64,000 nucleotides of DNA from Haliclystus octoradiatus (lineage: Eukaryota > Cnidaria > Staurozoa > Stauromedusae > Haliclystidae): contig OU744446.1 of the NCBI GenBank assembly GCA_916610825.1, forward strand, positions 987,501 through 1,051,500. Direction: 5' to 3'. Positions 5,491 to 61,478 of the stretch are shown in pieces. Every line of letters starts with the position of its first letter. The stretch's first letter is position 1. The notes under the pieces are model-generated. The model made no database searches. It was not told the origin of the DNA and saw only the letters and a list, made by a program, of their open reading frames with translations. A program made the translations under genes and the position numbers.

Positions 5491-20891
<15,401 letters not shown>

Positions 20892-25919: not shown

Positions 25920-30293
<4,374 letters not shown>

Positions 30294-32176: not shown

Positions 32177-35100
32177 TTACGTTAACTGGATTGATCTATA
32201 ATCAGATAAACAATTATCATTATTTGAAATTTTAATATATAATTTACTTGATTTTATTTTCCAGTTATTTTGTAGTGTTGGATCACGTATCAAATAAAAT
32301 ACTTGTTTGAAAATACCAATCGGTTGATTTTGACCTTTGTGCACCGTTCCAGATGCCTCGATCATGGCTAAACCAAACTCATCAATTTTACCCTGCACAG
32401 AATCAGAAGGGTTTAGTATCATTTGATGTTTTCTACCAAGATTTAAAATAAAGTTATTAACAGCATTTGAGTTGTTTAGTTCTTCGGAGTATTGCTGTGT
32501 CTGTGATTCATACAGAAATGTAAACTGACAATCACCCCAAAAGTGATCCGTATTCCATTGTGAATTACGTTCTTGATTAGTTAGCTCTTTCTGTGTGGAA
32601 CAGATTGCATTAAACAAAGTGAAATACCATGGTATAAAACTTTCTGCTAATTGTTGACCAATCGGTTGTTTCATGTGTCTTTCGTGGGTGTGATGAGCAG
32701 GATTAATCAATTCCACCTGAGTTATATTTGGAATGCTCTGGAACTGGAATATAACAAATGAAAATAAAATAAAAATAAGTAGCAACAGAATACAAGCATT
32801 GCATAAATTGTTAAAAACATATTGACATACACTTTGCGGGAACTTACAATGAAATCAAACCAGTCCTGGTCCTGCGCGATTGTGATAATGGGATTGAATG
32901 ACAAATTTCGAACACATCCCCTGTGAAAATAGTCCATGAACGTTAAATGGTCCAATTTCATGAACTATTCATGAACTGAGCGTGTTCATAAACAGGCCAT
33001 TTAATAATGTTCATGAACTGCTTTCGGGTGTTCATTGGCAGTTTCTGAATGACTGTAAAGTTCTTGAACAGTTCAGGGAAATGTGTAAAGTTCATAGAGA
33101 TTTGTGAAGTTGTTGAAAAGTTTATGAATATTTGTAAAGTTCTTGAACTGTTAATGAACCCTCCAGATTTACAGGGGCTGTAGCTTCAAAAAGAAATTGT
33201 TTGTGAGTCTGAAATACTGTGAAATGAAACAAAGAATGACCAGAATCTGAGTTTGGACTTGCGAGATTGCATCACAATTTATTACGCCTTTTTAAATGGC
33301 TTGCATACTACAGTTAAAATCTCAATGCATCACCTTGCAATTAATAAAAAACGTTTAATAAAAAAAATGATTCAATAAATTTACAAAATAATTGGCAAAA
33401 AATTTCTAAATAAGTCATTGCTCTGAGGACCACTCGAGACACTAAAGGAGAAAAATCAAAAGTGAAATTCATTTGCCCTCCTGTGATTCATATGAAACTG
33501 TGCACCAATGGATAATTGTGAAAACATTATTTGGTTCCGACAAGCATGTAATGCAGACAGTCAATTCTTCCAAGTGTGATGAATACAAAATCTGTCTGCG
33601 TCACAACTCACAGGATAGATTTTCTCCCCCTTACCGTTGATATATTTCTTTGCTGTTGAACTGTTTTGATCCTGCTCACTGCCTCCTGATCGTCTCGGTT
33701 CCAAAAAGAGAGAACCATATCAACAAGAGCAGATTTCTCAGAATTTATCTCAGGTACAATTTTATTTTCAACTAAATAGCTAAACAGCATATTTCGTTTC
33801 ATTTTCTTTCTATGCAGTAACTGTTTTGCGCTTGGGCAGTATGACAGGATAGCTCTAATTGCCTCTAAAAGAACAATAAAATAGAATTAATTTAAAGTTT
33901 GAAAATTAGGACTCTAGAATCAATTAGTAGATCATTATATATTATTGACATTGAGTTTCAACTTTAGTTGAAATACATTATTTTTAACAGAAGCTTCTGT
34001 GATAAACATTTGACAGAAAAAACAATTGGCAACAACATATTTAATATTTTATTTTCCACGACGTTTCAACCACGACTTGTGATCATTTCAAGTGAACAAA
34101 AACAATTTATGAAAACCTAAACTTACTATACCTATTTTGAAATTTAATTACTTTTTACTCAACTCGATTAAAGACTCGATAAAATCAATAGTCTTTTAGT
34201 AATGTATTAAATTTTTGTACAATTTTATTGTTCTACATTCATTGTTTTTACATTTTAAATTTCAAAATAGGTATAGTAAGTTTAGGTTTTCATAAATATT
34301 TTTAATTCACTTCAAAATGATCACAAGTTGTGATTGAAACGTTGTGGAAAATAAAATATTAAATATGTTGTTACTAGCCTAATGGTTTTTTCTGTCAAAT
34401 ACATTAATTTTGGCACTTCAAAACTTATATTTTTATTACCATAAATATATTATCTTTATCAAAATATGCATTATTTCGCCATCAAAATTTACAGTTGACC
34501 ATATCATATTGAGTTACATCGTTCAATTCATACAAAGATTATCGTCATACCGAAGATTAACGCCTTAACGGTAACATAGTCGTAGTTCAGGAAACAAGAA
34601 AAAGCGATGTGAAATATATTCCATTATTTGATTGCGTATAATAATATATTACTGAGAAATGCAAGCAAGTAGAAGAATTTTGCACAGTAAATGTATTGAA
34701 TTTTTAAATAAACTATAAAAGGAACAATCTGATTGTTTTATAAATTCAAGCTTATTTTCAATACATTAATAAAAATATCAACATAGAAATGATAAAATTG
34801 TATGGATAATTAGTTTTAATTATAATACTTTAAGCTTCACGTGGTTTCTTTCTTGCCTTCTTAGCTGCAAAGTCATGAATGATGTAGTGCGTTGCATACA
34901 TGTAGCCTCGAATCAGTGTAAATAAATAGACATCTAACCTATTGTATTTAGAGTAGTGTTGTAGAGGTCAGTGATTGGAAAAGATCAATTATATTATACT
35001 GTGTGGTGATTGTTGTTAGTTACTTAAGTACATGTCTTTAGATTATTGTTTGAGCTGCGGGACTCAACAGAATGACATCTTGAAAATCAATTGAACGCAA

Positions 35101-37231
35101 TTCAAGTCGATGTAGGATATCAATTTTCCTTGAGAAAGTGTCGATCTGTTGTAATTTTCAATTAATTTAAGTTTCGAAAATGACCTTTCTCCTGAGCAAT
35201 TTGTAACCATCATCGATAAATATACTCTAAGTACTGTTTCCACACCAGGAAAAACATTTACCAAGTCGTGGCTGTGGATTAGGTTAAACACATAACACTC
35301 CTCACTTATAGTTTTACTACTAAATTTGTTTAACAATGGCTCGGCATATCCTGTAAATATTGCCATTTCATTGCATAATGAAGAATCTAGATCATAATCG
35401 TATCGTGAAATAAGTTTTAGACAATTTGCTTCAATATCGGCACTAGATAATATGTTCAACTTACCAACGAAAGAGAAATATTTACTGATATCATTATACT
35501 CTACTTGCCGATAAATGAGTGCCTCCGTAATACTGTCCGTAAGTTTTTAAATGATTTGACAATAAAACCTTCTCTAGGAGTATTTAAAATTGTTCCGTCT
35601 TCATTTCTTTTTCTTGCCTGTCGTTGATACACAGTCGAGTACTCCCTTTCTCCGCACATTTCAATGGCTTTTATTTTCATAATTATCAAATTTACTTTTC
35701 ATAGTATTAAGAAAGAGATTTAACGAGTTTAATAGTCTAACCGCAGTATTCAGGTCTATTGTAACACTCTGAAGCTTACTACTACATTTATTAACTTCTT
35801 GCAAATTTCATTACATATGGTGGACATGAGTGCGGTCTCTATAAATTTAGCATCCGCTCTTGGAGCCCACATGCTTCTACTCTAATATTAGGTATTTCTT
35901 GCTCGTTAAGTGCAATCTCACCAAGAAGCCAAGAAGCTGAAGTATTGTACTATAGCCTACGTGAACGGCCTTTTGTAGCATCGACATAGGCTGACCAACA
36001 AGTGTCACACAGTCTTTTCACAACAAATACTTTATTACCACTTCTACTAGAGGCAGTCAATGCAGTCTTGAGCAAGTCCCATTTATCCGTCAAATTCGAA
36101 TGGAAAACATATAGGCGTTGTACGAAGTTGAAAAATTTAACAGCTTCTGGACAGGACTCCACAGCGCATTGTCCCACTAAATTCAAAGAGTGCCCACAGC
36201 ATGGGACTTTCTTCGTTGATTTTAGCATGTACACCATTGTACTTCCCGCGAGTTAGGCCCTGTTTACAAGGAGGGCGAGTTACCCGGGTAGGCGAGTTAC
36301 TCGCCTTACCGAGTTAAAATGTGTTGTGTGTTTACAAGGGTCACCTGAGTAACCCGCCTACCCGAGTTAAATAATTTGAAGCCAATCTAAGCATGCGCGC
36401 TGAAATGGAACGATTAGAGAACAAAAGATGTCTACAGCGGAAACGTTCGAAACAATACAAAATTAAAGCTACCATTTTTAATTTTAACCCGCCTACCCGA
36501 GTTACTCGCCTATTTCCGTTTACAAGTCAAAAAGTGACAGAAAGTTGTCTCGGGTAGGCGAGTTACTCGGGTGGGCGAGACAACTTTCTCACTTTGCTTG
36601 TAAACAGAACGCTCATAAACAATAGACCCGGGTAACTCGCCAACCCGAGTAACTCGCCTACCCGAGTAACTCGCCCTCCTTGTAAACAGGGCCTTAATGT
36701 TTGCCGTATTGTCATACGTTTGCAAATTTTATATTAACACCTTTACATTTAAGATAAGTGAGCAGAATTTTTCATAACTCCTCAGTCATTTCCAAATATG
36801 TTATAAAACGTTCCACTTCTACTGACCAGTCCTTCAGGTAAGATACTATATACTAATTAGGTGTAGGCCTAGGCCTACCTCAAATAAGAACAAGTTGGTC
36901 AATATGAGTAACATCTGGCGTAGAATCGATTGATATAGAAAAATACTTTGCTCTTTTGACTTCATGTATTATAGTATCCATCAAGCGAATACCCATGCAT
37001 TCTATTAGTTCATTTTTCCGAGAAAATACACGACCTTGGCCGAGCACAATGCATTCTTTCCAATCTGGCAGATGTATAATATATACGCTCGTCTCAAATG
37101 CTGAGAGACTTACCTTGTTTATCAGAGACATTCACTAGCCTTGTCGTTATAGTATCTGCCAATGAAATCAAGTCTTTTTCCTCAATTCTTTCAAGGATTT
37201 CAGTACATTTAATTTTCGTGTTGTCGTCCAT
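32177..37231 (-). CDS. C3orf38-like: C3orf38 homologue (DUF4518 family), complete
   Basis: Protein of the DUF4518/C3orf38 family, function poorly known; the C-terminal part has an NTF2-like feel. Exons: 37231-37114 (MDDNTKIKCTEILERIEEKD, then LISLADTITTRLVNVSDKQ), 33864-33635 (AIRAILSYCPSAKQLLHRKK, then SYLVENKIVPEI and LVDMVLSFWN), a 24-base microexon 32871-32848 (DQDWFDFI), and 32743-32177, which carries the family core: ESFIPWYFTLFNAI, TDHFWGDCQFTFLYE, FGLAMIEASGTVHKG, PIGIFKQVFYLIRDP, NNWKIKSSKLYIK. Phases agree (1, 0, 0). Total 312 aa; the human protein is about 329 aa. Intron 1 is 3.2 kb and holds a broken hAT transposase on the same strand, with a MITE inside it. Intron 2 holds a GTTCATGAAC-type MITE whose end abuts the microexon region. 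The microexon is the least certain part. Confidence 0.85.
32918..33177. mobile_element. GTTCATGAAC-family MITE
   Basis: Ends form an inverted pair, CCCCTGTGAAA at the left and TTTACAGGGG at the right. The inside is packed with variants of the palindrome GTTCATGAAC and with TGAACTGTT. It lies in the C3orf38-homologue intron. No coding content. A DR5 AGTTCA pair is at 32961-32977. Confidence 0.65.
32961..32977 (-). promoter_or_regulatory. DR5 AGTTCA pair, minus strand
   Basis: Minus-strand AGTTCA-TGAAT-AGTTCA within the MITE at 32918-33177. Confidence 0.3.
33981..34396. mobile_element. Foldback retro-insertion with AAATACATTA target duplication
   Basis: Two arms of about 140 bases are inverted copies (ATTTGACAG at 34008 against CTGTCAAAT at 34392; ACTATACCTATTTTGAAATTT against AAATTTCAAAATAGGTATAGT in the middle). 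Each arm carries a GAAACGTYGTGGAAAATAAA string. AAATACATTA is repeated on both sides (33971-33980 and 34397-34406). The shape fits two inverted, truncated copies of one retroelement inserted together, as Penelope-like elements often do. Confidence 0.6.
35064..37090 (-). pseudogene. Broken hAT-superfamily transposase (ZMYM1-like, DUF4371)
   Basis: Frames on the minus strand match hAT transposases with a DUF4371 core, but no frame is continuous. In order along the minus strand: AKYFSISIDSTPDVTHIDQL near 36930 (first catalytic Asp region), TYDNTANI near 36710, GKYNGVHAKI near 36210, then after a frameshift CCGHSLNLVGQ and FVVKRLCDTCWSAY near 36000, and the C-terminal dimerisation region VTNCSGERSFSKLKLIEN near 35190. 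Stops and frame changes separate these blocks, and a MITE interrupts the middle one. It lies wholly inside intron 1 of the C3orf38 homologue, on the same strand. It is an old, dead insertion. The 35501-35689 frame looks like part of the same remnant. Confidence 0.8.
36256..36693. mobile_element. PIF/Harbinger-type MITE nested in the hAT remnant
   Basis: Inverted ends GGCCCTGTTTACAAGGAGGG and its complement, flanked by TTA on both sides (36253-36255, 36694-36696), the 3-base duplication typical of PIF/Harbinger. Inside are many copies of GGCGAGTTACTCG and CCCGGGTA in both orientations, giving GC content far above the surroundings. No coding content. Confidence 0.8.
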
Positions 37232-37644
37232 TTTGTTATATCCTAACTAAAAACAGAGGCTGGGATTTCACAGAAAAATTGCCAAGGGGAAAAGGACCCC
37301 TCTAATTTATTTCACATGAAAATGAAGACCTAATCAACAAAATTTATAATTTTACTGCAATCTGTATTCAATCCTTGAGACAGACAGACAGACAGCAATG
37401 GAGACAGAGAAACCGTGTGCGTAGATATAGTACAATAGCTATAATGATTGAAATTCGACAATGGCAACATTTTCACAATTATGGTGAGACGCAGCCCCCT
37501 AAATGTGAGCAGCATTCCTGTCGTTCACAAACTACAAGCGCAAATGATCTTAAACCCAAAGTTATCTTTTTATTACATAATCAAACTTTACAAAAATAGC
37601 TATAAACATTTTAATAACATATTTGATTCAATAACTAAATATTT
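37232..37644. other. Spacer between C3orf38 homologue start and transposase-derived ORF stop
   Basis: Both flanking genes are on the minus strand, so this 413-base stretch must hold the upstream gene's 3' end and the C3orf38 homologue's promoter. A (CAGA) run occurs near 37380-37395. I looked here for a terminal repeat matching the far side of the transposase-derived ORF and found none. Confidence 0.5.
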
Positions 37645-40600
37645 CTATTCTTCAACTTCAATTTGAACAACATCAACTTCAATTCCAGTGTTCATACCAA
37701 TAACTAATTCATTTCCAGCTACAGTTTCATCGTTAAAATTAATATCGATTTGTTTTTGATACATGCGCAGGTAGTGATCAACTGCCTTCTCTCGTTCACA
37801 CAGTTTTGCTTGTATACTGGCAATTGTTTTTTGTTTCAATTTCAAACGCAAAGAAGGTATCTGTTTTGCAGCTTGGACAGTGGTGTTGAAACTGATATGT
37901 ACTGTATCAGCCGTAATGGTCTCTTCGCCGGATGTCATTTCTCCAATGATTGCCTCAAATACAAAATGTTCAAAAGCACCCCAATCAGAAACATTTTCTT
38001 CACTACCAGCATGAGGTATAAACATTTCAGGATCAGAACCTTCTTTGCAACTGTAATATTTATTGTGGAGATGTCTTCTACGTTTGACATTGGGTTGATC
38101 TAGATCTTTCTCTGGACGCGTCCCATGTGGGTTACAACAAGGATTGCAATCACAATGAGGGGTGCAACCTTCCTCGTTGCGATAACAAGGGCAGCGACAA
38201 ATGTAGTTTCCAATAGTTGTGCACCTTTGTTTATCTCTAGTTTTACCTCCACGTCCACAACGACATCTTATGATAAATTTTGGTGTTTCGTCTTCTTTAT
38301 CGTGGTCAAATGGTTTACCATTGTATGCCAAAGCATGGAAGGAGCGATCGATAAACAAGAGAAAAACATTTGGAAGAAAAGAAGATGGAGTACGAGGAAA
38401 CACAGGAGCAATAGGGAATACTTCCATGCTTGTGAATATAGTGATCACACTACAGAGACATGACGCTAGTTCTTTTACCATCGATTCTGCCTCTGTTTCT
38501 TGAACATTTGAAACATCATCTGGCCTACGTTCTAATCTCAATGCCACCTGTTCTTTCATATTCCTTGTAACAGCTGTTTGAAGCAAAAGAGCCATTTCAG
38601 TGCAAGACATTGTCTCAGTAATTCCAAATGGTAATAGATGCTCTTTTAGATTCTTGATTAGGTCCTTGTCGTCTGATTCTAGAAGATGAATCAAGTATAC
38701 GGCAGCGCTGTTAAATAAATTACCAAATCCAATTGAATCTTGTTGAGTGGTATCCAAGACAACAAAGTCTTTATGATCAGAAAGCACATCTTCAATTGTT
38801 CGTTTTGTAATCACAGCATCGCCACGATCAGCTAACATTGGGTGATACAGCAAAGAAAGAGCACATGTCAAAAATGGTACAAGTCGATAGTTAATATTAA
38901 TGTGTTGAGCAAATTTCTGTAAATCATGATGATACTTGTAAAACATGTGTGCACGACATATTATAGTCTCATAAAGCTGATGCTTTGATGATAGACTATT
39001 AGGATCTGGGTCTTTGGCAGAAGACGCTTTGAAATGTTTTCTGACAATCTCCAAAAGTTTATCAGACATTTCAGAGAATTTCAAGTCAGATGTAGATTGA
39101 GATGAATTAGAGTTCTGTGCTGTAGTAGGCCTAGCTGCTGAGATGACAGCTGTTGATGAAATCAATGTTTGATCAATAATAATACTATTTAAGTTTTCAT
39201 GAGAAGTGATAATATTAGTAACAGGATTAATTTGGCCTTTAGCGGAATTTTGTTCATGGAAGAATAACGTGAATAACGCAGCAGCTAATGGAACGCCTAA
39301 GCGGCAGTTTGTAAGACGATTACGCATCAAATGATGCAGCTCTTGTGAATGTAGATTACATACTTTGATTGGAATATCACTCAAACAACCAGCAGGGAAA
39401 TGCTGCTGGATTTCTTTAAGTAGCTTCACAACACTTCCAGGAAGAACTGGTGTCCCATTGGTATCTTTAACAGATTTCCATTTATTAATAAATATATCAA
39501 GATTGATAAGAAGAATGTTTGAATTAGCAGTTGACCCTGGTAATGCCAAGGACACATCACTACTTGAAGTGTCACAAAACACTAACATAAAATCTTTCCA
39601 GCAATCAGCAAAACAAGAATGTTCTACAGGCATCTTTTTCTCAATTAATTCCAAAGTAACAGAAACGTTATGCTTTACATGAAAATCCTCACCAAAAACT
39701 TCTTTTATTTGAGAACTCCATCCGCAACAATTATTAAGACAACAACCTTTCAGTTGGATACCCGCCTTTTCATGTCTTTGTCGTAACGACAAAAATAAAT
39801 CCTTTGTTTCATCAAATGAATCAGATTTTGTTAACTGCCATGCAATAACTTGTCCGTGCTCATTTACAACATAGAGTAGACCTTTAAACTGCGTAACCCA
39901 AACACCATTAGGCTTTGAGAACCCAATATTTGATGCAATCTTAAACGTTGTATCAACAATAAACCATTCTGAGGCTGCTAGTTGTGACATGCATTTTTTA
40001 TAATATGGTTCTTTCGTTTGGAAACCACTGATAAAGCATTGACCAAGGAGGGTGTTACTTGGAGATGAAACTTTTAACTTGGGAAATGGTTTAGCAGAAC
40101 TACCTGGCATTCCATTATGTTTTAATGATTCAAAATAAGCGTCTTCTCTCATTGCATAAGATTTTGTATATGCGTTTTTCATTAATTCTTGGATCTGATT
40201 AAACTTGAAACCTTCAATAACTAACGATGTTATCTTATCATATAATTTCCGTGTTAAACCTGCCTTGTGGAACAGTATGAAAGGCACATTTTCTTGATTT
40301 GAAACAAATTTAAGTATGCGAGGATCATATCCTAAAAAGCTATGCTGTTTATTATCACAGCGCAGGACAGATGTAATCAACGTCACAATCCCATCAACGC
40401 CATAAAGTTTTCGCGTGTAACGTCTTGTTAACAAACTGATAAACTTCAAATGACAACCACATTCTGGGCATCCCGTATTCTCAATTACTTCAGGACAAGA
40501 ATATTGTACATCCCAAATAATTACATCTGGTTTTAAAAAATCTTTCAAGGAATGAGCTTGTGTTGGCGACATAGATCGTACAGCGGAGTGAAAGCCATTG

Positions 40601-40824
40601 ACTCCATTTGAAATGAGATCCGTGATATATCTCTTGACATCTTTATCAGTGAAAGAGTCTTCGTTTGAACTTCCAGTTTCTTCATCTTGTGAGGGAGGAG
40701 GTATTTCATGATGAATTACATTAGAAATTGCCTCACATTGCTCTGAATTACTTGCATTATCAGATAATATAGTTACAGTAACAGTTGCCTCCTTGTCTTC
40801 TGCTAGAATCGCAGGGATTGACAT
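37645..40824 (-). CDS. Intronless transposase-derived protein with CXC cysteine cluster, probably catalytically dead
   Basis: Open frame 37645-40926 (1093 codons). I take the ATG at 40824 (MSIPAILAEDKE) as start, giving 1059 aa; the 34 codons before it look like leader sequence. Residues below count from the open-frame start. 133-250: DUF6729-like zinc segment (CPECGCHLKF, LRCDNKQHSFLGYDPRI). 320-560: RNase-H-like transposase core, starting FIVDTTFKIASNIGF (Asp325). Where I recall the family having Asp-Asp-Cys-Cys, this protein has LNNCCGW (398-401); where a Lys-Leu-Asp segment is usual it has VKHNV; before the His-His pair near 531 it has SQEL rather than Asn-Glu. 888-933: cysteine cluster CRCGRGG...CRCPCYRNEEGCTPHCDCNPC, as in KDZ-type elements. 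The C-terminus is helical and charged. No frameshift or stop. Family name uncertain (KDZ-like); transposase origin likely. Confidence 0.8.
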   Translation of the reverse strand: MSIPAILAEDKEATVTVTILSDNASNSEQCEAISNVIHHEIPPPSQDEETGSSNEDSFTDKDVKRYITDLISNGVNGFHSAVRSMSPTQAHSLKDFLKPDVIIWDVQYSCPEVIENTGCPECGCHLKFISLLTRRYTRKLYGVDGIVTLITSVLRCDNKQHSFLGYDPRILKFVSNQENVPFILFHKAGLTRKLYDKITSLVIEGFKFNQIQELMKNAYTKSYAMREDAYFESLKHNGMPGSSAKPFPKLKVSSPSNTLLGQCFISGFQTKEPYYKKCMSQLAASEWFIVDTTFKIASNIGFSKPNGVWVTQFKGLLYVVNEHGQVIAWQLTKSDSFDETKDLFLSLRQRHEKAGIQLKGCCLNNCCGWSSQIKEVFGEDFHVKHNVSVTLELIEKKMPVEHSCFADCWKDFMLVFCDTSSSDVSLALPGSTANSNILLINLDIFINKWKSVKDTNGTPVLPGSVVKLLKEIQQHFPAGCLSDIPIKVCNLHSQELHHLMRNRLTNCRLGVPLAAALFTLFFHEQNSAKGQINPVTNIITSHENLNSIIIDQTLISSTAVISAARPTTAQNSNSSQSTSDLKFSEMSDKLLEIVRKHFKASSAKDPDPNSLSSKHQLYETIICRAHMFYKYHHDLQKFAQHININYRLVPFLTCALSLLYHPMLADRGDAVITKRTIEDVLSDHKDFVVLDTTQQDSIGFGNLFNSAAVYLIHLLESDDKDLIKNLKEHLLPFGITETMSCTEMALLLQTAVTRNMKEQVALRLERRPDDVSNVQETEAESMVKELASCLCSVITIFTSMEVFPIAPVFPRTPSSFLPNVFLLFIDRSFHALAYNGKPFDHDKEDETPKFIIRCRCGRGGKTRDKQRCTTIGNYICRCPCYRNEEGCTPHCDCNPCCNPHGTRPEKDLDQPNVKRRRHLHNKYYSCKEGSDPEMFIPHAGSEENVSDWGAFEHFVFEAIIGEMTSGEETITADTVHISFNTTVQAAKQIPSLRLKLKQKTIASIQAKLCEREKAVDHYLRMYQKQIDINFNDETVAGNELVIGMNTGIEVDVVQIEVEE

Positions 40825-41402
40825 CACATAAATGGTAGTTTCAACGTGTAGGATACATGAACCGACGCCATCAAACAGACACCCACAGAAAACACAAACA
40901 CGCGCTCTTGAATGAAAAACAATCAAAATATATCACCTGTTATAATGTGAAACGACACAAATGTTTTCAAAGGCAGATTCAAATCAGTGTAAATGTGATT
41001 ATCGTAATTATCGTAATTAGCAAGTTTTACCTGCTATTTTTTCATTTCTATGCTTTCAATGTGAATAAAATGAGATTTTAATTCAGTTTTTGCTTTATTT
41101 GCTCAATTTAAAATTTTAAATAAGTCAAATATTTGAAAGCTTCATCCTTCACCCTTCATTAGGGACTTGGCAGGTGGGGAAAAGTACTCATTACGAGGCA
41201 AAATCAAGTTTCCAGCTATAATTCCCAAAATCTGAATTAGCAGTCAGTCAGAGTCAGACTAGTCCATCACTAAAAGATGGAATTAAAATTCATATTCTAT
41301 GTCTTTGCAAATGAATCACAATTTTCTATAATATACTACTAGCTTTTATTGAATATAACTGTTCTTAGTAGTTCGCATACAATTTCCAATCGATGTGTAA
41401 CG
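40825..41402. promoter_or_regulatory. Divergent spacer between transposase-derived gene and CatSper-subunit gene
   Basis: About 580 bases between start codons pointing away from each other. It should hold both 5' UTRs. No terminal inverted repeat matching the other side of the transposase-derived ORF was found. TAAT/ATTATCGTAATT repeats at 41000-41020. Confidence 0.4.
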
Positions 41403-44400
41403 ATGTCGATGTGGATATATTTGATTGTTCTATTGTTGTTTATCCAACTGCAATTCAAAGGTACTCAATTTTCATTGCTGCTTCATCACAGATTAATTCA
41501 CCTTACTAAAGATATCACGTATGAAGGCATCAATGACTCGCATATAGCTTCTTGCCTTTGGGAAGATTCTTCAGTAGGAGAGACTGCCATGTTTTACCTT
41601 GAAACTCATGTCATCAAAAATTCAAATCAAAGTGTAAGTTGATTTAATAGGATTTGAAATTGTGACTTCTCCAGAGAATACGGTATAGTTTCAGATCAAA
41701 GATTATCTTGTGAATAATTTCACTAAAGACTAACCCTTTACCAGCAGACATAAAAAATATTCCTTCCAGCTGCAAGGTTAAGGTTACCAGATTGAAAATA
41801 TTGCAATTTGCGCGCCTGAGATTTAATCAAGTTTAATTGAAATCCTACGTAGGAAAGTCTGCTGCGCGCCTGAGATCTCAGGCGCGCACAACAAACTTTT
41901 CAGTCTGGCAAGGTTATTTCAAAAAATATTCAATTATTATTATTGTTAATTATTGTTAATCAGCTCCGGACCAGTCTGTAGAGTATGGCAGAGCGCTACC
42001 CCGAGATGATATTTCAAGCATCTCAAGCACAAGCAATGGGCACCCATGGCACCATCCGGCCATGAAAACAAAATGCCAACAAAACTTACAAGAATATAAA
42101 TTACAAATTGATGCTACCCCTTCTCACAAGAGTTGCTACTCATTATTTCATTTTTGTTGTTCTTGATGATACTTTTGATGATACTCTCTGAAGTATGATG
42201 ACATGTTGAAAACCGCACATCGTGAAAACGGTAAATTTTGAGTTCAAAAAAATAGATGATTGACCCTGATGCAATCTGCGATCCCACTTTTGTGAAAATT
42301 TCATGAGTTCATGAATAATTCATGAACTTAAGAATGTCGCTTCCAGGTCAACTTTGGAATGATATGTGTTTCACCTAAATTTTTGTAGCGAACACAAATA
42401 GCAATCTTTAGCACGCTATTCATTATTTTTTATGAAATTACTTCATACATCGCCAAGTTGATATCCATTTCATTAATTTAATTTAAAAAGTTTTATTAAA
42501 TTCTGAGACGGTGAGTATTTTTTCGTTGCGAGGTGACCTTGAATGACCCAAGAACAGTTCATGAAAAGTTTACAGACATTTCCTTATAGGCGCATGAAAG
42601 GTTGATGAACGTGTGGGTAATTTCACATTCATGAGCTTGTGGACTGCCTTTGCAGGGGCAGCAGCCTCCATTTTACTTAATTTTGCCCTGATAAACTCTG
42701 GTATCTAATTTCAGATTCTATTTTTCTCTGCAGGTTGTTTCTGCTTGGAATGAAGAAGATTATTACCGAGCTATAGATACAATGGTTTTAAAAGTTCCGA
42801 TTAATATAGCTCAAGATCACAATCAAATGTTTTCCACAGTGTATCAGTATGCTCAGGGGTCTTCATTAGGCTGGCTCACGCAGTTACCAAGCGTGGATGT
42901 TACTAGTAAATTGTTTATTGAAATGAGACCCCATTATACAGAATTCAGAGCTGAAGGGTATGTCAGATAATACTTATAAGGACTGTTGTATAGATTAATA
43001 AGATCAGGTTGCTAAATCTCTTCATGCAATGTTTCGTTCCCTGTTTCGAAATTTTGTATTTTTTTGTCAGTATATGTTGTGTAACGCATAGATGATATTC
43101 TCATACTTAGTAAGTCACATGCTATCTTACATTCGTTATTACAAACATCACAGTGTACCACATGCACAATTGTACACTTCTTCCAAGGACAAGAAATATG
43201 CAATGCAATTTGAGTAGATGCAAACAATCTACATTCTATAGCAACCACCTCTATATAGAGACCACCTGTCTATAGTGGTCACTTTAGTAATATTAAAAAG
43301 CATTATTCTATTAAATCAAGCCTGGGTACCACTTGTCGATGGCAGTCAATTTATCTACATATATATAGGTGGGTGTTATATTTAGTTTTCATTGTATACT
43401 GTCCCCAATCAATTGAAGTAAAAAGGGTCAATCAAATCAAACTACACCAAGGACTGAATGTTTCAATGAAGTTTCGAGCAATTTTAAAAACCCAAAACAT
43501 GATTATTGTATTCTGCCTAAAGCATTTTTGATAAAAACCATTATGGTATTTTTTTCCCCGTAGCTTTGTGATCAACACCTGCAACAATGAGTTATCCTAT
43601 CCATATGTTAGTGAAAAGTTCAATCCAATCATTTTTCCAGAGATGGTAGATAGTTACGAGAGTCCTGTTGACGTTGTAAAACTACCAAATGAGATATGGT
43701 CCATCCTAGGGAGAAATCAAATTCTACCGGTGGTGTCTTATGATGAGTTTTACAGCTTACTATGCGTACAAGTATGTTGTGAATGAATTTTTTTTTTTAC
43801 GAGTAGGCTGTTTATACTGTTATATATATTATGTTAATCATTGACTAACATGTAAACAGGCCTACCAAAATGGAGCAATTGGATTGGTCGAACAGCAGTC
43901 AATTCTAAAGCTGCATTGACTGTTCCATGTTTTCTTACCGTTATGGCGTAAAGACACAACAGATATTTGTGTCTTCGATGCATTCAAATACGTTAAAACT
44001 CATGTTATAATTATATATCACAAAATTGACTCGTTCGTCATTGACTGAAACAGTTATTGATCTCAATGAATTTAACTGTTTATTATTTAATTTCTAACAC
44101 GTACGAGTGATGCATTTGATTTATGCAATAAATTTGCTACGTACAAATGGTTTGACAAGTTTATAAATTTCTTTGTTGGCTTTGACGTCTGACAACAAGA
44201 TCCCACCCAAGTCCCCCAATCTTTGATTCCAGAAGGGTAGAGCAATTCAGGAGATTGATATTTCTATGATTCATAGGCAGGGATGTTAAAGTTACTTTTG
44301 AAAAGTAGTTAGCTACAGTTACCGTTACTTGGACGAGAAAGGAACTAGTTACTTTCAGACGCTACTTTTCAGAAAAAGTAACGGTTACTAGTTACAAGTT

Positions 44401-50400: not shown

Positions 50401-53400
50401 TCAATCAATTTTATGATCATTCTGGATTATTCCGTAATATTAAAATTACATATGGTAGGTTTTCCAAACACCATTAATTGACTGACGATATATTCAAATA
50501 AAGACGTTGCCTCTTATTTTAACTTTTGTGTTGTTCCTAGTTCATGCACATTCTGACTATTGTCATGGTAACAATGGCTGTGCAATAATATCTTTAACTG
50601 GGATACATGTTTTATGGCAAACTGGTGATGTTGTTGTTTTTGGCAATGAGCTGTTGTTGTGGTGAGTTATTTTCAATGGTTTTAACATGAGTCTAACTAT
50701 CTTCATTACACTTATCCAAATTTGTATTTATCAGAAAGTATTCAAATATATATTGGATGGGATATTGCAAGCTATGCTTGAGCTATCTAAATGCACGACC
50801 AATCCGGGAACAGCTGTTAGAATGCCAAATTGCCAGCTCTCTCATAGCTTGAAGTCAGCAGAGTTGTGTGATGAGGCTAGAATGGATGTGCATGCGTTTC
50901 CATCTTGCTTTAATTAGTCCAGCTTGCAGTCATTCAGGTGCACACACACAATTCAGTTTACTCAAACACAATTCATTGAGTATCATCATGCACCTTAAGG
51001 AACATTATGACTCATTCTTATTCTCCTTGCGAAAATTGAAATAAATTTCTTTATACTGTAATCAATTTGTGTGTATACCTGGTATCAGGTATTTCTTAAT
51101 AAATGATGATGATAATTATCACCCTCTACCGTTGTTAGCCAATTATAGCAACACTTCGATGTACTTTTTTTAGTAATTTCAATTAAGTTAAATAGGGAAT
51201 AGGGTTTACACTGTTTATCAATGCGTGCGAAGGTGCTTGGTTTGGCGCAAGGACGGGCAAAGGTTTCCTTCTAGCAATTCAATCTAAGCTAATCAATTTG
51301 AGCCAAAACATACCAACCAAGCCAACAAAGCACCACCCTGGAATACTATTTCTAAAATATAACGTCGTAATCAACCTTAATCCTGCAATTTGATTGATTG
51401 GACCATGTGATTGGAAATTCAAGTGTAAACATTTTTTCAAAAATTCCCGTCGAAATGTGTCAATAAAATGTTGTCAGGTGCTCAAAGCTGAAGAAGAATA
51501 GGAAACAGCAATGTATTACTGTACTGAAGAAATAATATCAACAAAGCTATCTCTGTTTAAGAAATACCAACATTTTGAAGTTTTAATTTGATCCAAGGAA
51601 GTTTTAGTAAGTAAAAACATTGGATTCAAATTGAATTTTAAATCATTAATTCAAAATTCGAACGACCTTCTGAAATATAAACAAACTTGATTCTGATAAT
51701 TGTTTTATAGTAGTTTGGCTCCTTGTCTTGCTTTCAACATGTCACTTGTGTATTCCGCCATTTCGCGTGTAATAAATATGAATACAAACGCGACAAAGTG
51801 TGTTGTAACCCTTTACTCACAATGCAGTCAGAGATTTGACCTTAATAGGCCTACCGGTGTGCGGATTTCATTTTATTGAAGTGCACTATAGCTAGGTACA
51901 CTGTTTATAATTTCTAACAAGATGTTTTCTATATTTTCATACAATTCATTTATCAGTTTTATGTGTATTGTTGTGTACTGTAGTTACCTTCACGTTCCAT
52001 TCTGCTCCGTTGTGTCATCACATGTTGACGACCCTATTGTCCTGTTTGTGGCATCACCTGCTGGATATATTGCATTTGTAACACTATCAAACAAGGTATT
52101 TCCTATGATTCTTTTTTAAGTGCTTATTATCTTCTTTCACCACACAAACTGGTTTTGCGTCATGCAATTCTCACTAGGGCAATGATCACATGCTGCCGCT
52201 GCCGCGTGTATCTCCCCCTTCCTTATGCCATTTTATTGCATGGCAAAATATTGAAACTTCTAGATTTATTTCATTTTACATGTGTATATTATGTACAGGC
52301 AGACATTCTACCACCGCCACCTCTTTATCAGCAACCACCTGCCCAAGGTGACCACTTTAGTAATGTACAAAGTAATTGTTATTTCTCAACCACCCTGTGT
52401 GTAATGACCGCCTGTCTATAGAGGTCAATTTACGTTGATCTTTTAGATTACTGTTATGTACAGGTTTCACTGTATATGATACTAACAAATGCATTCATTG
52501 CCAACTGTGTTGCATCCGTGTGTCATGCCATGCCTTCCTTCTAGGTGTGGTTTGGTACAAACATCTTTCATTCTGCTGTCACACCCGTTGTTACACTGGA
52601 TTCAATTTCAACGTTATTCTTTGATTCGTTTAATGACCTTTATTACGTAAGTTAACCTTAGATAATTTCACCACAATGATAATTACAACCTTAAATTCTA
52701 TCACACATTTCACTTTTGGGATTATATTGATATGTATACAATGTTTAAGGTGTGAGAGAATTCCTCCTATCAGCTGGCAGTTCAATCAGTTCTAAGGAAA
52801 TTAACTTGGAACATTGGTTTGGTATCAGGGTTGTTTTCACAGTTTTCACAGACACGGGAACTTTGCTTTCTTTTGATTAAAACTGACTCTTATCTATAAA
52901 TATGATGATTACATATTTCTGAGCTTTCTATTTTGATTTATTCATTTTCAGATAAACAAATTCAGCAGTAGAAGAGAATTGATAAATGTAGCAGAGATGA
53001 TTGCCCAACAAGGTCTTGTCATTAATGAAATGTACATGGTTGATCAATCAGATGCTGATCAATTACCACTTAGTTACAATGAACGCATCAGCACTCAATG
53101 TATCTACTCTGAAGTCGAACTTATAATTGATGATGTGCAATCGATGTCGAGAGTTAGGACAATTCGCAGATGCCAATCAACTGCAACTAACGCTGGAGGT
53201 ATTCCTTTTGCCACAAACGATTGTGATCGTGAGGGTGATAATCGTCTGTGTTGTCTTGCCGCACCTCAACAAAGATATTATGTACATCTACCAGAAAATA
53301 TTTACCTTCAGAATGAACAATGTTTTAATTTCAGTGCAATCGTACATCTTAGAGACCAATATGGTGAGTGGATAATTTAGTTTCAATGTCTAGGTAGCTT

Positions 53401-56400: not shown

Positions 56401-59400
56401 TTGACTTGAAACACATATCAATAGGTTCGTTATTAACCAGAGGCGTACATGGCCGGCTTCATTTCTTAAATAAATACATCGAAGTTGATAAAAACCAATG
56501 AAAACTGTTTCCCTTTTCAACAACAATGCTTTCTCAGACTGAAGCGCTAACTAGCAGTTTCGCACTTGAATGAATTTCTATTGTCTCGCAAATACAAAAC
56601 AGCGCAATCCTTTGTTGCGACGTGACAGATAATTTGTGTATTTTCAACGTAGTAATTTTCAGAATGAAATTCAAACGTAAACAAACAAAACAACACGTAT
56701 ATTTATATGAAAATGAAACAAATAAGATGTGTCATCATCTTATCTTCAGTTGGAAATTATTTAATGATTGATCATAAATTATTATTTGAAAATGACTTGA
56801 ATATAAGGTTATGAAATTTGTAAACAAACCCGCGTTATGGAAATTAAATTACGAAGATAAAAATAAAAATATTTCCTGATTATTACAGCCAGTGTTAAAT
56901 TGTACAGTACTGCAATGAAATTTAATCAAAATATAGAAGCAATTGCAATACCAACTTCCACTTCATCAGTGACAACAAATAAATTAAAATATAATAAAAG
57001 AATGTGCATTGACAGTAATTAATGAAATAAGATGTAAAGATGATAAATAGTTTCTCATTCTATACTTTTTCAGAAGTCACTTGAGTCAAATGTTGAATAA
57101 CCACGTTATGGATAAAAAATAATCAATCAAATTTTTTCGGGATGTGACAGTGTTGTTAGGTGGAACATAATAAAATTTAGACAAACCCCAAAAAATTGTT
57201 ACCTTGCAGCTTTATGACACTCGGGTTAGAAATGTTTCTTTGATTTTTTTTTTTTGGGGGGGGGTGTATGGCTATTTAACTTCCACTTTCACTTCTCAGC
57301 TTTTTGCTTCTTTGAACAGCAAAAAATAAAATAGAATAATTTCTGAATTAAATTTCGGCTTCAATCATCTTTTTTACATAGATTTCTTCATGCATCTATT
57401 TGAACCAGTTAAGTCAGATGATTCACAACTCAATATAAGCATGCATTTGCATGCAACTCGAAATCTAGTTGTTATTAAAAAGATCATCAGTTTCGTTGAA
57501 AAGGCAAACCACATCTGAGTATCCTCTACTTGTTTAAAACTGATTTCTGATACATTTAAACTTAGCTAACAAACTCCCCATACAAACTCTCATTTTCCTA
57601 CCCCTCTTAATATCTCTTCTTACTGAATGTCCCACTTTTCATCCACACCAGGTGTATAATAATAATATAATAATTTACATTTCCAGTTACCTACTTAATG
57701 ATAAGTGCCTGTTTATTGAGGACATAATCACATTACATACCGTATTATTTAACGAACGAAATACTTAAAAGTTTCTACTATGATTACACAAACATTATTG
57801 TAAACAAACAAAATAAAATCGATTCATAACATTTTGGGAAATTGTAGTTTAAACTCGGTTTATACAGCGAATATACATTGAAACCTACACAATTGAGCCT
57901 AAAAATGTCTGAGGTGTCGACTTATACACTGGAAATAAGTTATACAAACACCATGTGTGCATCGACCATGCCATTTAACGTTTAACATCCATGAACTGTT
58001 TTGACAGAGATAACTATGCATGTCTGTGCCGTTAACCCTTTAATTTAATATAATATTCTTTAAGACATCTAGCTCAATTCCTCAACTTGATTCAATTCAA
58101 GAGAGAATGTTAAAACAAAAGTAACAATTGTAAAATGGCAATAATGCACAATGAGTTACACTGTTGGCCATCCAACTGTTCAGTACCAAATGATATCATT
58201 AACTACTTTAAATATCTCCCGTTTCTACTGATGTGAAGGTGCATCTATATACTTAATATACAGTTTGTGAACGTTAAATGGTGGGTTTGTCCTGAACTAT
58301 TTATGAACAAACGATAAAAAGCCCGTGAACATATAGTAAACAGTTCATGAACGTAAACTGGTCTGTCTTTCATGAACTATTGTAAAACTCGAGTGATTTT
58401 TGAATGCTGTTCTAGCAATTTGATTGGCTAACTCCCGTGTTTGGATCACGCAAGCCAAAACAACTTTGACATCATGATAGATAAAAACAAAACACCCAAA
58501 ATTTCATAATTATTGTAAATTAAAATTTGAATAACGTTAGCATTGTCAATGATAAATATTTCAGAATATTATAATTAAAAGTATTCTTCCTTTCGCGTCA
58601 TTTTGTTTGGTCATATGGCTATTCGGAGACAAAAACCAGCAAAAGTTTGCAAAACAAGACAGATCAAAATCATGGCGTTTGAAAGAATCGAAAGTGGTTC
58701 GAAAGTGCAATTCCGGATCTGTGATTCGAAGAAAGGCAAAATATGACGAAGACGTGAAGATTTATTGGAGAAAATTGATCTAATCAGTCAACTATTTTAT
58801 GTTAAATTCGTTTAAAAATAGTAAAATAGGTTTTGTTTCACAAAAGGGTTAGTGCACGGCTGCCGTGCAGTAGCCCTTTATTGATAAACTGTTGATGAAA
58901 ACGTCATAGAAGTGTTGTTCATGAACTGTGTTCACCAGGAGATTGTTTCATATTTTGTTGTAGTTGAGTATATGCTGATGAAAATGACATATTTTTTAGA
59001 ATTCAAACCACATTTCTGGCTCGTAGATCAGGCCATTGAAACCCAAGTGAGATACCCTGGCAACTTCACATTGAGTATTGTTGGAGGTGGTACAGAGATA
59101 TCAAGTATTGAAGATTATAGCATGGCAGAACAGATTAAATTCAATGTCGAGGCAGGGTTGGTAGTTAGTGAAACAGTTTATGGATTTATCTAGTTAGATG
59201 GACGTAACAATAACATAACTAATTGTATCACATACTATCATATTCGAGGCTTTGAAGGCTAACTTCAAAGTATAGTGTAGTAGCCTTGAAATCGATTTGC
59301 TGATTTTAGATTGAGATATGTATTCTTAAGTGATCTTTCATGCGATCACTATAATGCAATTTTGTATTTGGATCTAATTTGTAAGATAGCTGCAGTAGCA

Positions 59401-61478
59401 TTACTGAAGCAGTATTTAATTAAAATTAGGCAATGAACTTGTATATAGCCGGCAGCTATGAGAGGTAGATACATTGATCACTATAGACAGGTGATCGCTG
59501 TGTAGAGGTAACTGTTGGAACAGATTTGACGGTCGTACAAATGTAAAATAGTATACATTTGTTTGAATTATCTACCCTCGAAGTGCATCATAGGATGCCT
59601 CTCTCTGTTAGTCAGTGATAGATAGATATGCCAGAATTGCATGTAGTTATCAAGTAAATGTTGTACGTCATGTTATAGTTTCTGCCTAGTATTTGCTGTC
59701 CAACTTAGATACAAAATGGAGTCCTTCCAATAGATTTAGAGTTTGCATTCAAAATATATTTCAACTGGTGTAAGAAAAGTTTAAGTCTTCTGTGAACCTA
59801 TCTGTTAGAAATCATCAAAATGAATAATTTATATGTAATAGAAATCATGTTACTATTGTACTGTCTCTCTAGATCGTCATTGATTTGGGTCCCACTGATT
59901 GCGCAATCGTCTGATGTGTTTGTATTCACTGCTGACACTGTTGCTATGAGGTAACTATGCGTTAACATTATTTCTTTTATCTACGATTAACCAATTAACC
60001 AATATTGATGTATTTTATTTCTGTTTTCAGATGGTTGTGTCGTAGCCAATCACCTTGTTCTGGTGTAGCGCCATCTTTTCCAGACACTCCAAAATTCTAT
60101 TTCGTCTTACAATTTTCAAACAGGTATAAATAGATACATATATCTTTGTAGCACAATACCTAACAGGCAAATGAAACAAAGGAGGATATTATGGCCTAAA
60201 CAATTCTAAAAATGAAATATTAGTTATCATTTAAGGTACAGAGAAATATCAATAAATGGTGTATGTAAGAGGTAAAACATTAGAAAATATTTAAGCGAGC
60301 AACTGGTTTAACTAGAGTAACTTCAATATTTAGATAAATTAACTTTGTTGAGTTTTGTTCGAAATATTTTCAAAGGATTGGAGGAAATCACATTGGAAAG
60401 GCTGTTCCATGGACTGATGACTATGTTGGCGAAGGCATATTCGCAACAATCATATTTGAAGTTCATTTTTTTCATCCAGTCTTGACTTTATCTACAAATG
60501 AGTATCGTCTTCTGATGGCAGTTAGAATGGAACAGAATATCATGTCATAATGTTCTTAAATCCCCAAATTTAATTTAATTTAATTCTAGAAATGTTGATG
60601 ATGGCTCCTGTGATTTCACTTTCCGCTTTACAATTCTTGTTCATGGTCTAACGCCTGGTTCGATAAACCCTTCACTCATCATTGTTCTGGTAAGTTTTAT
60701 CTCCAATAAGCAGTTCATGAACTATATAGACTAACTCACAGGTGAATTATCATGCTTATCTCTCGCAGCATATACTGTATAGTCATTGTGCTCGCAGTGA
60801 CATATCGAGTATATTGAGGGAGGGACCAAGGACCTTTATACCAACATGTTGTTGTATAGCATTTTCATGGTCATGTGTATTGTAAAAATGTTTTACAACC
60901 TTGCCAAATTATTAATTTAATGAAATTCTCACAAAGTCACAAAGAAATGCAGAGGAAGGGCTTCATTTGCAGAAAATGTCGACACATGTTGGAATGTTTA
61001 CCTTTTTGTCGTGTTTTAATGTCAAGTATGATGAAGTCATAGAGTGATTTGTTACACTCAATTTTCAATTATTCAATCCATTATCGGTTAGTACGTTGTG
61101 CGTTTTCATCAATGAATGCTACACATGTGACTGCATATAGGCTCAACATCGATGTATCACTGACCATTTAGATAGCACCATGACTCTCCTTGTCCGTGAT
61201 CAATCCATCCCACCCGCTCTCGTGTGACTGATTGGATATTTCTACTGTTTTAGGTGTGTATTGCGTTGCTTATTGCTATCATCCTATTTTGCTTTAAATT
61301 CCGTTCCAATCTACAACGCATCATTGACGCCTGCACCAATTTGATGCGCCACTGGAATCAGTTAATGCATCGCCGTATATCTCCTCTCTTCACAACAACA
61401 ACAACAAATGACGAATCAAACACGGAAGAATTGTCTATGGGTGCTATGGCAACAGAACCATCCATCGATGCTTGGTAA
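41403..61478 (+). CDS. CatSper auxiliary-subunit ectodomain protein (gamma/epsilon/delta type), complete
   Basis: Single-pass protein of the CatSper auxiliary family, which forms the extracellular canopy of the sperm calcium channel. Exons: 41403-41633, 42734-42957, 43564-43771, 45860-45970, 46729-46768, 48299-48427, 48887-48970, 49316-49441, 50335-50376, 50541-50661, 51984-52095, 52545-52646, 52952-53363, 54487-54599, 54993-55073, 55516-55578, 56170-56314, 59000-59156, 59873-59950, 60031-60123, 60590-60689, 61254-61478; 998 aa, phases consistent. N-terminal signal peptide (MSMWIYLIVLLLFIQLQFKG); many Cys and N-glycosylation sites. Family-type C-terminal ectodomain: VRVGCPPGLSVMFD, FKPHFWLVDQ, FTLSIVGGGTEISSIEDYS, SSLIWVPLI, WLCRSQSPC, FYFVLQFSNR, then CDFTFRFTILVHGL. 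One membrane helix CIALLIAIILFCFKF and a short cytoplasmic tail. The last codon TGG-TAA could instead be a GT donor. Length fits gamma or epsilon; subunit identity is not settled. Confidence 0.78.
41787..41908. mobile_element. Small hAT-like MITE
   Basis: CCAGATTGAAAA at the left and TTTTCAGTCTGG at the right are inverted; flanks TAAGGTTA and CAAGGTTA agree at 7 of 8 bases. The inside has a perfect 26-base palindrome centred on TGAGATCTCA (41863-41888). Confidence 0.65.
42295..42660. repeat. GTTCATGAAC-family copy, split
   Basis: TTCATGAGTTCATGAATAATTCATGAAC near 42300 and GAACAGTTCATGAAAAG with a TTTGCAGGGG end near 42655; the middle part may be unrelated sequence or a degenerate interior. 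Confidence 0.4.
43225..43370. repeat. Copy of the CAGTGAAACCTGT / TAGTGGTCAC family
   Basis: AGCAACCACCTCTATATAGA followed by ACCACCTGTCTATAGTGGTC in a CatSper-subunit intron. Confidence 0.55.
44278..45306. mobile_element. hAT-type element with perfect 8-base duplication
   Basis: Ends CAGGGATGTTA and TAACATCCCTG, with subterminal AAGTAACTAGTTAC repeats in both orientations; flanked exactly by TTCATAGG (44270-44277 and 45307-45314). No transposase reading frame. Interrupted by another element at 44676-44769. Lies in a CatSper-subunit intron. Confidence 0.88.
44676..44769. mobile_element. Palindromic Mutator-like MITE nested in the hAT element
   Basis: 94 bases that fold almost completely on themselves: TAGCCTGCTCGCAGACTCAC at the left and its complement at the right. 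The exact 9-base duplication AGAAATCTC (44667-44675 and 44770-44778) suits Mutator-like transposition. Confidence 0.85.
47383..48106. mobile_element. TTAA-flanked MITE (piggyBac- or Kolobok-type)
   Basis: Ends AGGGAGAATACTGACCGG and CCGGTCAGTATTCTCCCT, flanked by TTAA on both sides (47379-47382 and 48107-48110). Just inside are GCGCGC and TTGAATT blocks. No transposase coding. Lies in a CatSper-subunit intron. Confidence 0.82.
48118..48240. repeat. GTTCATGAAC-family copy
   Basis: Dense TTCATGAAC units ending TTTTTTTCGCAGGGG, the same right end as at 5920-6062. Confidence 0.6.
48203..48219 (-). promoter_or_regulatory. DR5 AGTTCA pair, minus strand
   Basis: Minus-strand AGTTCA-TGAAC-AGTTCA inside the GTTCATGAAC-family copy at 48118-48240. 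Confidence 0.3.
49060..49210. repeat. GTTCATGAAC-family fragment
   Basis: GGTTCATGAAAG, GAACTGTTTGTGGGC and ATCATGAACTG; strongly degenerate. Another fragment lies at 49710-49805. Confidence 0.4.
49930..50285. repeat. Copy of the CAGTGAAACCTGT / TAGTGGTCAC family, inverted and decayed
   Basis: GACCACTATATACAGGTGGCC, then a further ACAGGTGGCCAGGG near 50140 and ACAGGTTAAACTGTA near 50267. Confidence 0.45.
52297..52472. repeat. Copy of the CAGTGAAACCTGT / TAGTGGTCAC family
   Basis: Ends ACAGGTTTCACTG, the exact complement of the start of the copy at 28744, followed by TA. Inside: GCAACCACCTGCCC and CCGCCTGTCTATAGAGGTCA. Confidence 0.6.
53554..53673. mobile_element. hAT MITE, short copy of the CAGRGTCCGACA family
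   Basis: Ends CAGGGTCCGACAAAAG and CTTTTGTCGGACTCTG; flanks AATGGCGT and AATGGCAT agree at 7 of 8 bases. Inner block TCTTCTGAATTTTG matches the copy at 26351-26554. Lies in a CatSper-subunit intron. Confidence 0.8.
54000..54125. repeat. GTTCATGAAC-family copy
   Basis: CCCGTTCATGAACCC, ACGTTCATGAAC and TTTTGATGAACTG in a CatSper-subunit intron. Confidence 0.5.
56315..58999. other. Long CatSper-subunit intron without recognised exon
   Basis: The flanking exons join in phase 1 and give the expected FDR-EFKPHF, so no coding exon is needed here. A TTTTTTTTTTGGGGGGGGG run lies near 57245, and a GTTCATGAAC-family copy near 58262. Confidence 0.6.
58262..58385. repeat. GTTCATGAAC-family copy
   Basis: TGAACGTTAAATGG (also seen at 32938), CAGTTCATGAACG and TTCATGAAC units within the long intron before the exon at 59000. 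Confidence 0.5.
59450..59525. repeat. Copy of the CAGTGAAACCTGT / TAGTGGTCAC family, fragment
   Basis: GATCACTATAGACAGGTGATC in the intron before the exon at 59873. Confidence 0.45.
60376..60550 (+). other. Possible alternative exon of the CatSper-subunit gene
   Basis: Between exons 60031-60123 and 60590-60689 lies an open stretch behind an AG at 60375, in phase with the upstream exon: IGGNHIGKAVPWTDDYVGEG, then FATIIFEVHFFHP. It is GC-richer than the intron. It can end either at a phase-compatible donor after 60501 (a 126-base cassette exon keeping the frame) or at the TAA at 60548-60550 (a truncated secreted form). Direct splicing over it gives the expected family join SNR-NVDDGSCDF, so I leave it out of the main model. 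Confidence 0.4.

Follow-up and report, generated by a model that had tools for sequence, protein, structure and literature searches.

A transposase-like gene of Haliclystus octoradiatus that may encode a domesticated, non-cutting host protein

To characterise an unusually long reading frame in the stauromedusan Haliclystus octoradiatus, we analysed a window of 64,000 nucleotides (assembly GCA_916610825.1, contig OU744446.1, positions 987,501 to 1,051,500 of the forward strand). Its central feature is an intact transposase-like gene, which we read as a single-copy host gene that may well derive from the transposase of a DNA transposon and would have lost the ability to cut DNA. A first-pass annotation had described this gene as a single long open exon of 1093 codons, without giving its strand, and had suggested that its catalytic acids are replaced by amides. 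The frame is borne out and lies on the minus strand, where it is open from 40932 to a stop at 37645-37647 (1095 codons from stop to stop). The earlier count begins at a TTG; the first ATG, at 40824, is codon 35 of that count, and 1059 stop-free codons run from it. The gene is laid out as follows.

37645..40824, minus strand: 1059-codon coding sequence that begins at the first ATG and has no internal stop
40825..40932, minus strand: open 5' extension of the frame with no ATG, possible 5' untranslated region
37569..37574, minus strand: AATAAA polyadenylation-like signal, 71 nucleotides past the stop

A frame of this length is not expected by chance, with a log10 P of -32.9 for 1095 open codons given the 6.5% of stop triplets in the window and assuming independence. 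The G+C content (GC) by codon position is 0.47/0.37/0.27, which falls within the span seen in five stretches of neighbouring host exons, and at the third position it is steady at 0.24-0.31 across ten blocks spanning codons 1-1000. The coding part seems to consist of a single exon. In the frame as originally counted, 34 codons come before the first ATG and are possibly left untranslated, and by our own reading of the sequence an AG acceptor-like site lies directly upstream of the frame, so a 5' exon is possible.

We next consider the domains of the predicted protein. In Pfam, residues 152-275 match DUF6729 (PF20499) with E=0.0014 and 18.7 bits when the whole protein is scanned, and with E=5.8e-4 and 20.0 bits when it is scanned by segment (profile positions 73-198 of 229), against a curated cut-off of 27 that neither score reaches. 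MSL2-CXC (PF16682) is matched with E=0.01 and 16.4 bits by the whole protein and with E=5.5e-5 and 23.7 bits by the segment alone, both under the curated cut-off of 26.7. The consensus of the CXC superfamily, CX[C/H]X2-13CX4-7CXCX5-60CX2-4CX1-2CX2-15CXN, as it stands in an excerpt of the MSL2 CXC structure paper (PMC3447885), has one match in the protein, at residues 888-932, and none in any of 20000 shuffled versions of the sequence. Retention of a CXC cysteine domain, as first proposed, is thus upheld by the published consensus, though the domain scores under the Pfam cut-off. Compared with MSL2 in the PDB, the CXC segment gave E=0.2 and the common pattern RCPCY...C...C.C..C.NPH, while the best PDB match of the whole protein was only E=0.87 and a search of NCBIfam returned no match up to E=1. 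Comparing the protein with itself was uninformative. A pullulanase match in Pfam (best E=0.0092, below cut-off) was dismissed as chance.

40102..40473, minus strand: DUF6729-like region, residues 152-275, a profile match below the Pfam cut-off
38131..38265, minus strand: CXC zinc-cluster domain, residues 888-932, by the CXC consensus and a sub-cut-off MSL2-CXC match
38074..38085, minus strand: KRRR, residues 948-951, possible nuclear localisation signal

The peptides on which the acid-to-amide proposal was built (FIVDTTFKIASNIGF, KGCCLNNCCGWSSQIKEVFG, VKHNV and SQELHH) are all present in the protein. In codons, LNNCC reads CTT AAT AAT TGT TGC, the asparagine of VKHNV is AAC, and SQELHH carries CAA GAG. 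Placed on the presumed RNase-H-like core, these give the following features, in which the assignment of each residue to a column is presumed.

39238..39954, minus strand: RNase-H-like-looking block, residues 325-563, by motif order and spacing, the fold itself unconfirmed
39952..39954, minus strand: the retained D325 of FIVDTTFK, presumably the first catalytic acid
39730..39735, minus strand: N398-N399 in LNNCC (AAT AAT), N398 being the presumed position of the second acid
39667..39669, minus strand: N420 in VKHNV (AAC), presumed position of a conserved acid that is not necessarily catalytic
39340..39345, minus strand: Q528-E529 in SQELHH (CAA GAG), Q528 being the presumed position of the third acid, adjoined by E529

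In the general layout of the RNase H fold, the catalytic triad would be D325 with positions 398 and 528, and position 420 would be a conserved acid outside it. Two, and not three, catalytic acids would therefore be amides. We aligned the protein with a provisional consensus for the active family in animals, drawn up with the target in view, and obtained 33% identity over 242 columns. This consensus keeps D325; it has D at the positions of N398 and N420 and E at that of Q528, which, the consensus being target-dependent, serves as a lead and not as a test. Residues 492-563 align to it without a gap, and the LH anchor sets E over Q528. The acid-to-amide replacement is a candidate lead: our columns agree with those of the first-pass annotation, but both sets were drawn up with the target in view.

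Provided that the presumed columns hold, these changes are poorly explained by random decay, because stops would have arisen in the frame. With transitions weighted 3 to 1, between 3.6 and 4.7% of point changes in the frame create a stop, and the probability that the frame is still open is 6e-5 to 6e-4 after 200 random changes and 4e-9 to 4e-7 after 400, insertions and deletions excluded. By a rough, uncomputed estimate, the frame would have to take several hundred random changes before three of four named acids had even a 5% chance of being hit. Codon tables further indicate that two D and one E, each given one random replacement, would all become amides with P 0.002-0.006, and that the two presumed catalytic positions alone would do so with P ~0.02. 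All of these decay and amide probabilities are conditional on the presumed columns; where those hold, we reject a dying transposon, the frame being free of stops.

To count copies, we searched the assembly of the species itself (261.9 Mb, 33 contigs). With a 742-residue query and a limit of E<=0.001, this locus alone was recovered (9 of 9 candidates scored); with the full protein and a limit of E<=10, it was joined by a single 96-residue match, at E=0.4, that contains a stop (8 of 8 candidates scored). These counts are lower bounds because only the best candidates were scored. Many near-identical copies bearing terminal repeats, which had been named at the outset among the findings that would refute a host gene, were looked for in the genome and not found; one copy was. 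Ungapped inverted matches between the 944 nucleotides downstream (36701-37644) and the 2000 nucleotides upstream (40933-42932) reached a best score of 10, which is not above chance, as the best scores in 30 first-order Markov shuffles ran from 9 to 14. Across 34500-43500 there are 71 inverted pairs, and among the 25 shown four span the gene (I7, I11, I16 and I24). The original statement that no terminal repeats are visible stands for the near flanks, which are at chance level; further out, where these four pairs enclose the gene, terminal repeats may exist.

Relatives were sought in public collections of contigs. None was found for the whole protein in viral_contigs, and provisional degenerate motif patterns hit 1 and 2 loci in viral_contigs and 43 in genome_contigs, with no relative among these 46 loci. 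The single viral_contigs locus of the first pattern looked phage-like by its frames. With the window's own locus included, tblastn of the protein against 47 loci (E<=1) returned the window's own locus only, and tblastn of the provisional consensus against the same 47 gave next best values of E=0.26, 0.77 and 0.97, all short matches at the pattern itself. Given that the motif patterns were provisional, failure to find relatives is weak evidence.

The surroundings of the gene contain both host genes and transposon debris.

32177-33886, minus strand: DUF4518 homologue, two exons, E=9.8e-37 and 4.8e-18
35064-37131, minus strand: broken hAT element with Dimer_Tnp_hAT, the fragments up to ~37.1 kb being our own reading
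36255-36694: element resembling a miniature inverted-repeat transposable element (MITE) within the broken hAT element, with 62-nucleotide terminal inverted repeats, 92% complementary
58888-59190, plus strand: segment like CATSPERG, the sperm calcium channel auxiliary subunit, matching CATSPERG_C (PF22846) with E=4.4e-5, 23.9 bits versus a cut-off of 27.6

The DUF4518 homologue, which is C3orf38-like, is separated from the transposase-like gene by the broken hAT element and the MITE-like repeat. The C-terminal dimerisation region of the hAT element (35064-35546) matches PF05699 (Dimer_Tnp_hAT) with E=9.5e-5, and its segment at 35953-36252 has no Pfam match. The MITE-like element holds internal ACCCGAGTAACTCGCCA-type units and, by our own reading, has TAA on both flanks. 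On the other side, by our own reading, lies a plus-strand gene that is head to head with the transposase-like one, probably opens near 41.4 kb in an exon that looks like a signal peptide, and perhaps extends over about 41.4-61.5 kb. The CATSPERG-like segment is one of six plus-strand segments taken for its exons; the other five (42695-42967, 43535-43783, 52937-53380, 60338-60547 and 61254-61475) gave no Pfam matches or chance-level ones. The gene had been placed between two divergent host genes, which is at most half right: the DUF4518 homologue lies on the same minus strand, so divergence holds for one side at most, probably that of the plus-strand gene.

Elsewhere in the window lie an aldehyde dehydrogenase exon (2772-3071, plus strand, PF00171, E=7.6e-34), a TAT array of 87 copies with 97% match (12598-12859), a protein kinase exon (27225-27506, minus strand, PF00069, E=3.4e-10) and an exon with a cyclic-nucleotide-binding domain (63022-63363, minus strand, PF00027, E=7.6e-7) that we presume to come from an ion channel.

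These data allow us to propose that the gene is a single-copy host gene derived from the transposase of a DNA transposon, domesticated and catalytically dead, a reading to which we give a probability of roughly 0.58. We infer a transposase origin, the identity of the catalytic columns, a loss of cleavage and a host function. In this model, the transposase of a DNA transposon would have become a single-copy host gene; the CXC zinc cluster, perhaps together with the DUF6729-like region, would let the protein bind DNA or chromatin; DNA cutting would have been lost as acids of the RNase-H-like active site turned to amides; and the product would serve as a chromatin factor or a reader of sequence. 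The frame is intact, one copy was found, the near flanks carry no inverted repeats above chance and the CXC consensus is matched. On these four points the domesticated, non-cutting reading of the first-pass annotation is strengthened, and on its divergent neighbours it is at most half sustained. As a whole, that annotation keeps its frame, its peptides and its CXC domain; its amide positions are candidate catalytic columns.

Several observations weigh against the proposal. Four public scans turned up no orthologue or real relative that would fix the columns, and the glutamate E529 adjoining Q528 could be the real third acid if the alignment slips, which is the main danger. The Pfam-A matches listed with E up to 10, whether from the whole protein or from four segments, include no transposase model, a negative limited by the HMMER filters, which drop most matches above E ~0.1. 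Both the DUF6729 and the MSL2-CXC match lie under their curated cut-offs. A single-sequence AlphaFold2 model was too poor to use (mean predicted local distance difference test score 33.7, 0 residues >=50) and leaves the RNase H fold unconfirmed. The spanning pairs I7, I11, I16 and I24 (22-28 nucleotides, 73-87% complementary, 6.2-7.5 kb apart) look like what AT-rich DNA yields but may include terminal repeats. Finally, the hAT and MITE-like debris directly downstream indicates that the site accepts insertions.

The last two points bear on a different account, in which a transposon of low copy number, or one acquired by horizontal transfer, inserted here once and recently; it would be undecayed and without host function, its terminal repeats too short or too distant to show. 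An intact frame without known orthologues, the adjoining debris, the four inverted pairs enclosing the gene at 6.2-7.5 kb and genome copy counts that are lower bounds would all suit such an insertion. Given that one copy was found, that inverted repeats in the near flanks do not exceed shuffles and that several active-site changes without a stop misfit neutral decay, if the presumed columns are right, we consider it unlikely. Misassigned columns would instead allow a nuclease that is still active, with E529 as third acid and the second elsewhere, in either an active element or a domesticated cutter like THAP9, which an excerpt on that protein describes as a domesticated transposase that still cuts (PMC8230255). 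The position of E529 beside Q528 and the provisional nature of the columns favour this; the gapless alignment of residues 492-563, with E over Q528, argues the other way, but from a provisional consensus drawn up after the target had been read, and we hold an active nuclease to be rather less likely than a recent insertion. We regard as improbable that the gene belongs to an old host family without any transposase ancestry, whose likeness to transposases with two aspartates and a glutamate (DDE) is superficial. The listed Pfam matches at E up to 10 include no transposase model and both domain matches are sub-threshold, as that explanation would have it; the motif order D / xNCC / VKxN / QELHH speaks against it, as does, weakly, the 33% alignment over 242 columns with the provisional animal transposase consensus.

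A more specific form of the domesticated, non-cutting reading, which we offer tentatively and rate as doubtful, is that all three presumed acids became isosteric amides through single first-base substitutions under selection. The transposase would then stay locked on DNA without cutting it, a natural counterpart of laboratory 'dead' recombinases. It would serve as a DNA-binding factor guided by the CXC domain, or would repress a related element that has since been lost.

Domesticated transposases that do not cut are already a known kind, with Imagin and ALP1 as examples. The transposase from which ALP1 arose belongs to PIF/Harbinger. In the cited passages, ALP1 of land plants is a domesticated transposase with DGA in place of DDE and a chromatin role, and has been studied by genetics and proteomics (PMC4671723). 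The present protein would resemble it as a transposase-derived host protein with replaced triad acids and a role in chromatin; it differs in that the ALP1 replacements are non-conservative whereas those presumed here are amides, and the ALP1 passages mention no CXC domain. Imagin, from malacostracan crustaceans, is described in an excerpt as a domesticated Ginger1 transposase whose orthologues in decapods have ratios of nonsynonymous to synonymous substitution (dN/dS) of 0.05-0.13 (PMC12863088). As reported there, it too is single-copy with no inverted repeats reported, and it keeps a zinc domain and the core while the DDE acids are lost, a loss that is presumed here; unlike the H2C2 zinc finger of this Ginger1 derivative, the zinc domain here is CXC, and the superfamily is not established. 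With MSL2 and the tesmin/TSO1 CXC proteins the gene shares cysteine spacing that agrees with the superfamily consensus as excerpted (PMC3447885). Unlike MSL2, it has no RING domain among its Pfam matches, and its MSL2-CXC score is 23.7 bits versus 26.7.

Transposases of the Kyakuja-Dileera-Zisupton (KDZ) group are associated with cysteine-rich domains. They are large animal and fungal proteins of up to 1400 residues according to the passages cited (PMC9297572; KDZ also PMC12730594), and the protein described here is likewise large. The KDZ transposase domain named in one of those passages (PF18758, PMC9297572) is absent from the listed Pfam-A matches with E up to 10, whether the whole protein or the four segments are scanned, again within the limit set by the HMMER filters. 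A survey of transposon-derived transcription factors across animals contains none of the terms KDZ, Zisupton and CXC (PMC10027918). We found no paper on DUF6729 or PF20499 in a collection without most subscription papers, and among the top-ranked titles and abstract openings there, none describes a domesticated member of this family; one may nevertheless have been published. Few domesticated transposases have been reported in non-model animals such as crustaceans, as stated in the Imagin excerpt (PMC12863088).

Amide mutants of transposase acids have been made in the laboratory. If each lost acid of the Haliclystus protein did become its own amide, the gene would be a natural version of those mutants, and would allow the question of what purpose a non-cutting transposase is kept for. 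New DNA-binding proteins have repeatedly come from domesticated transposases, and this gene may be one such case.

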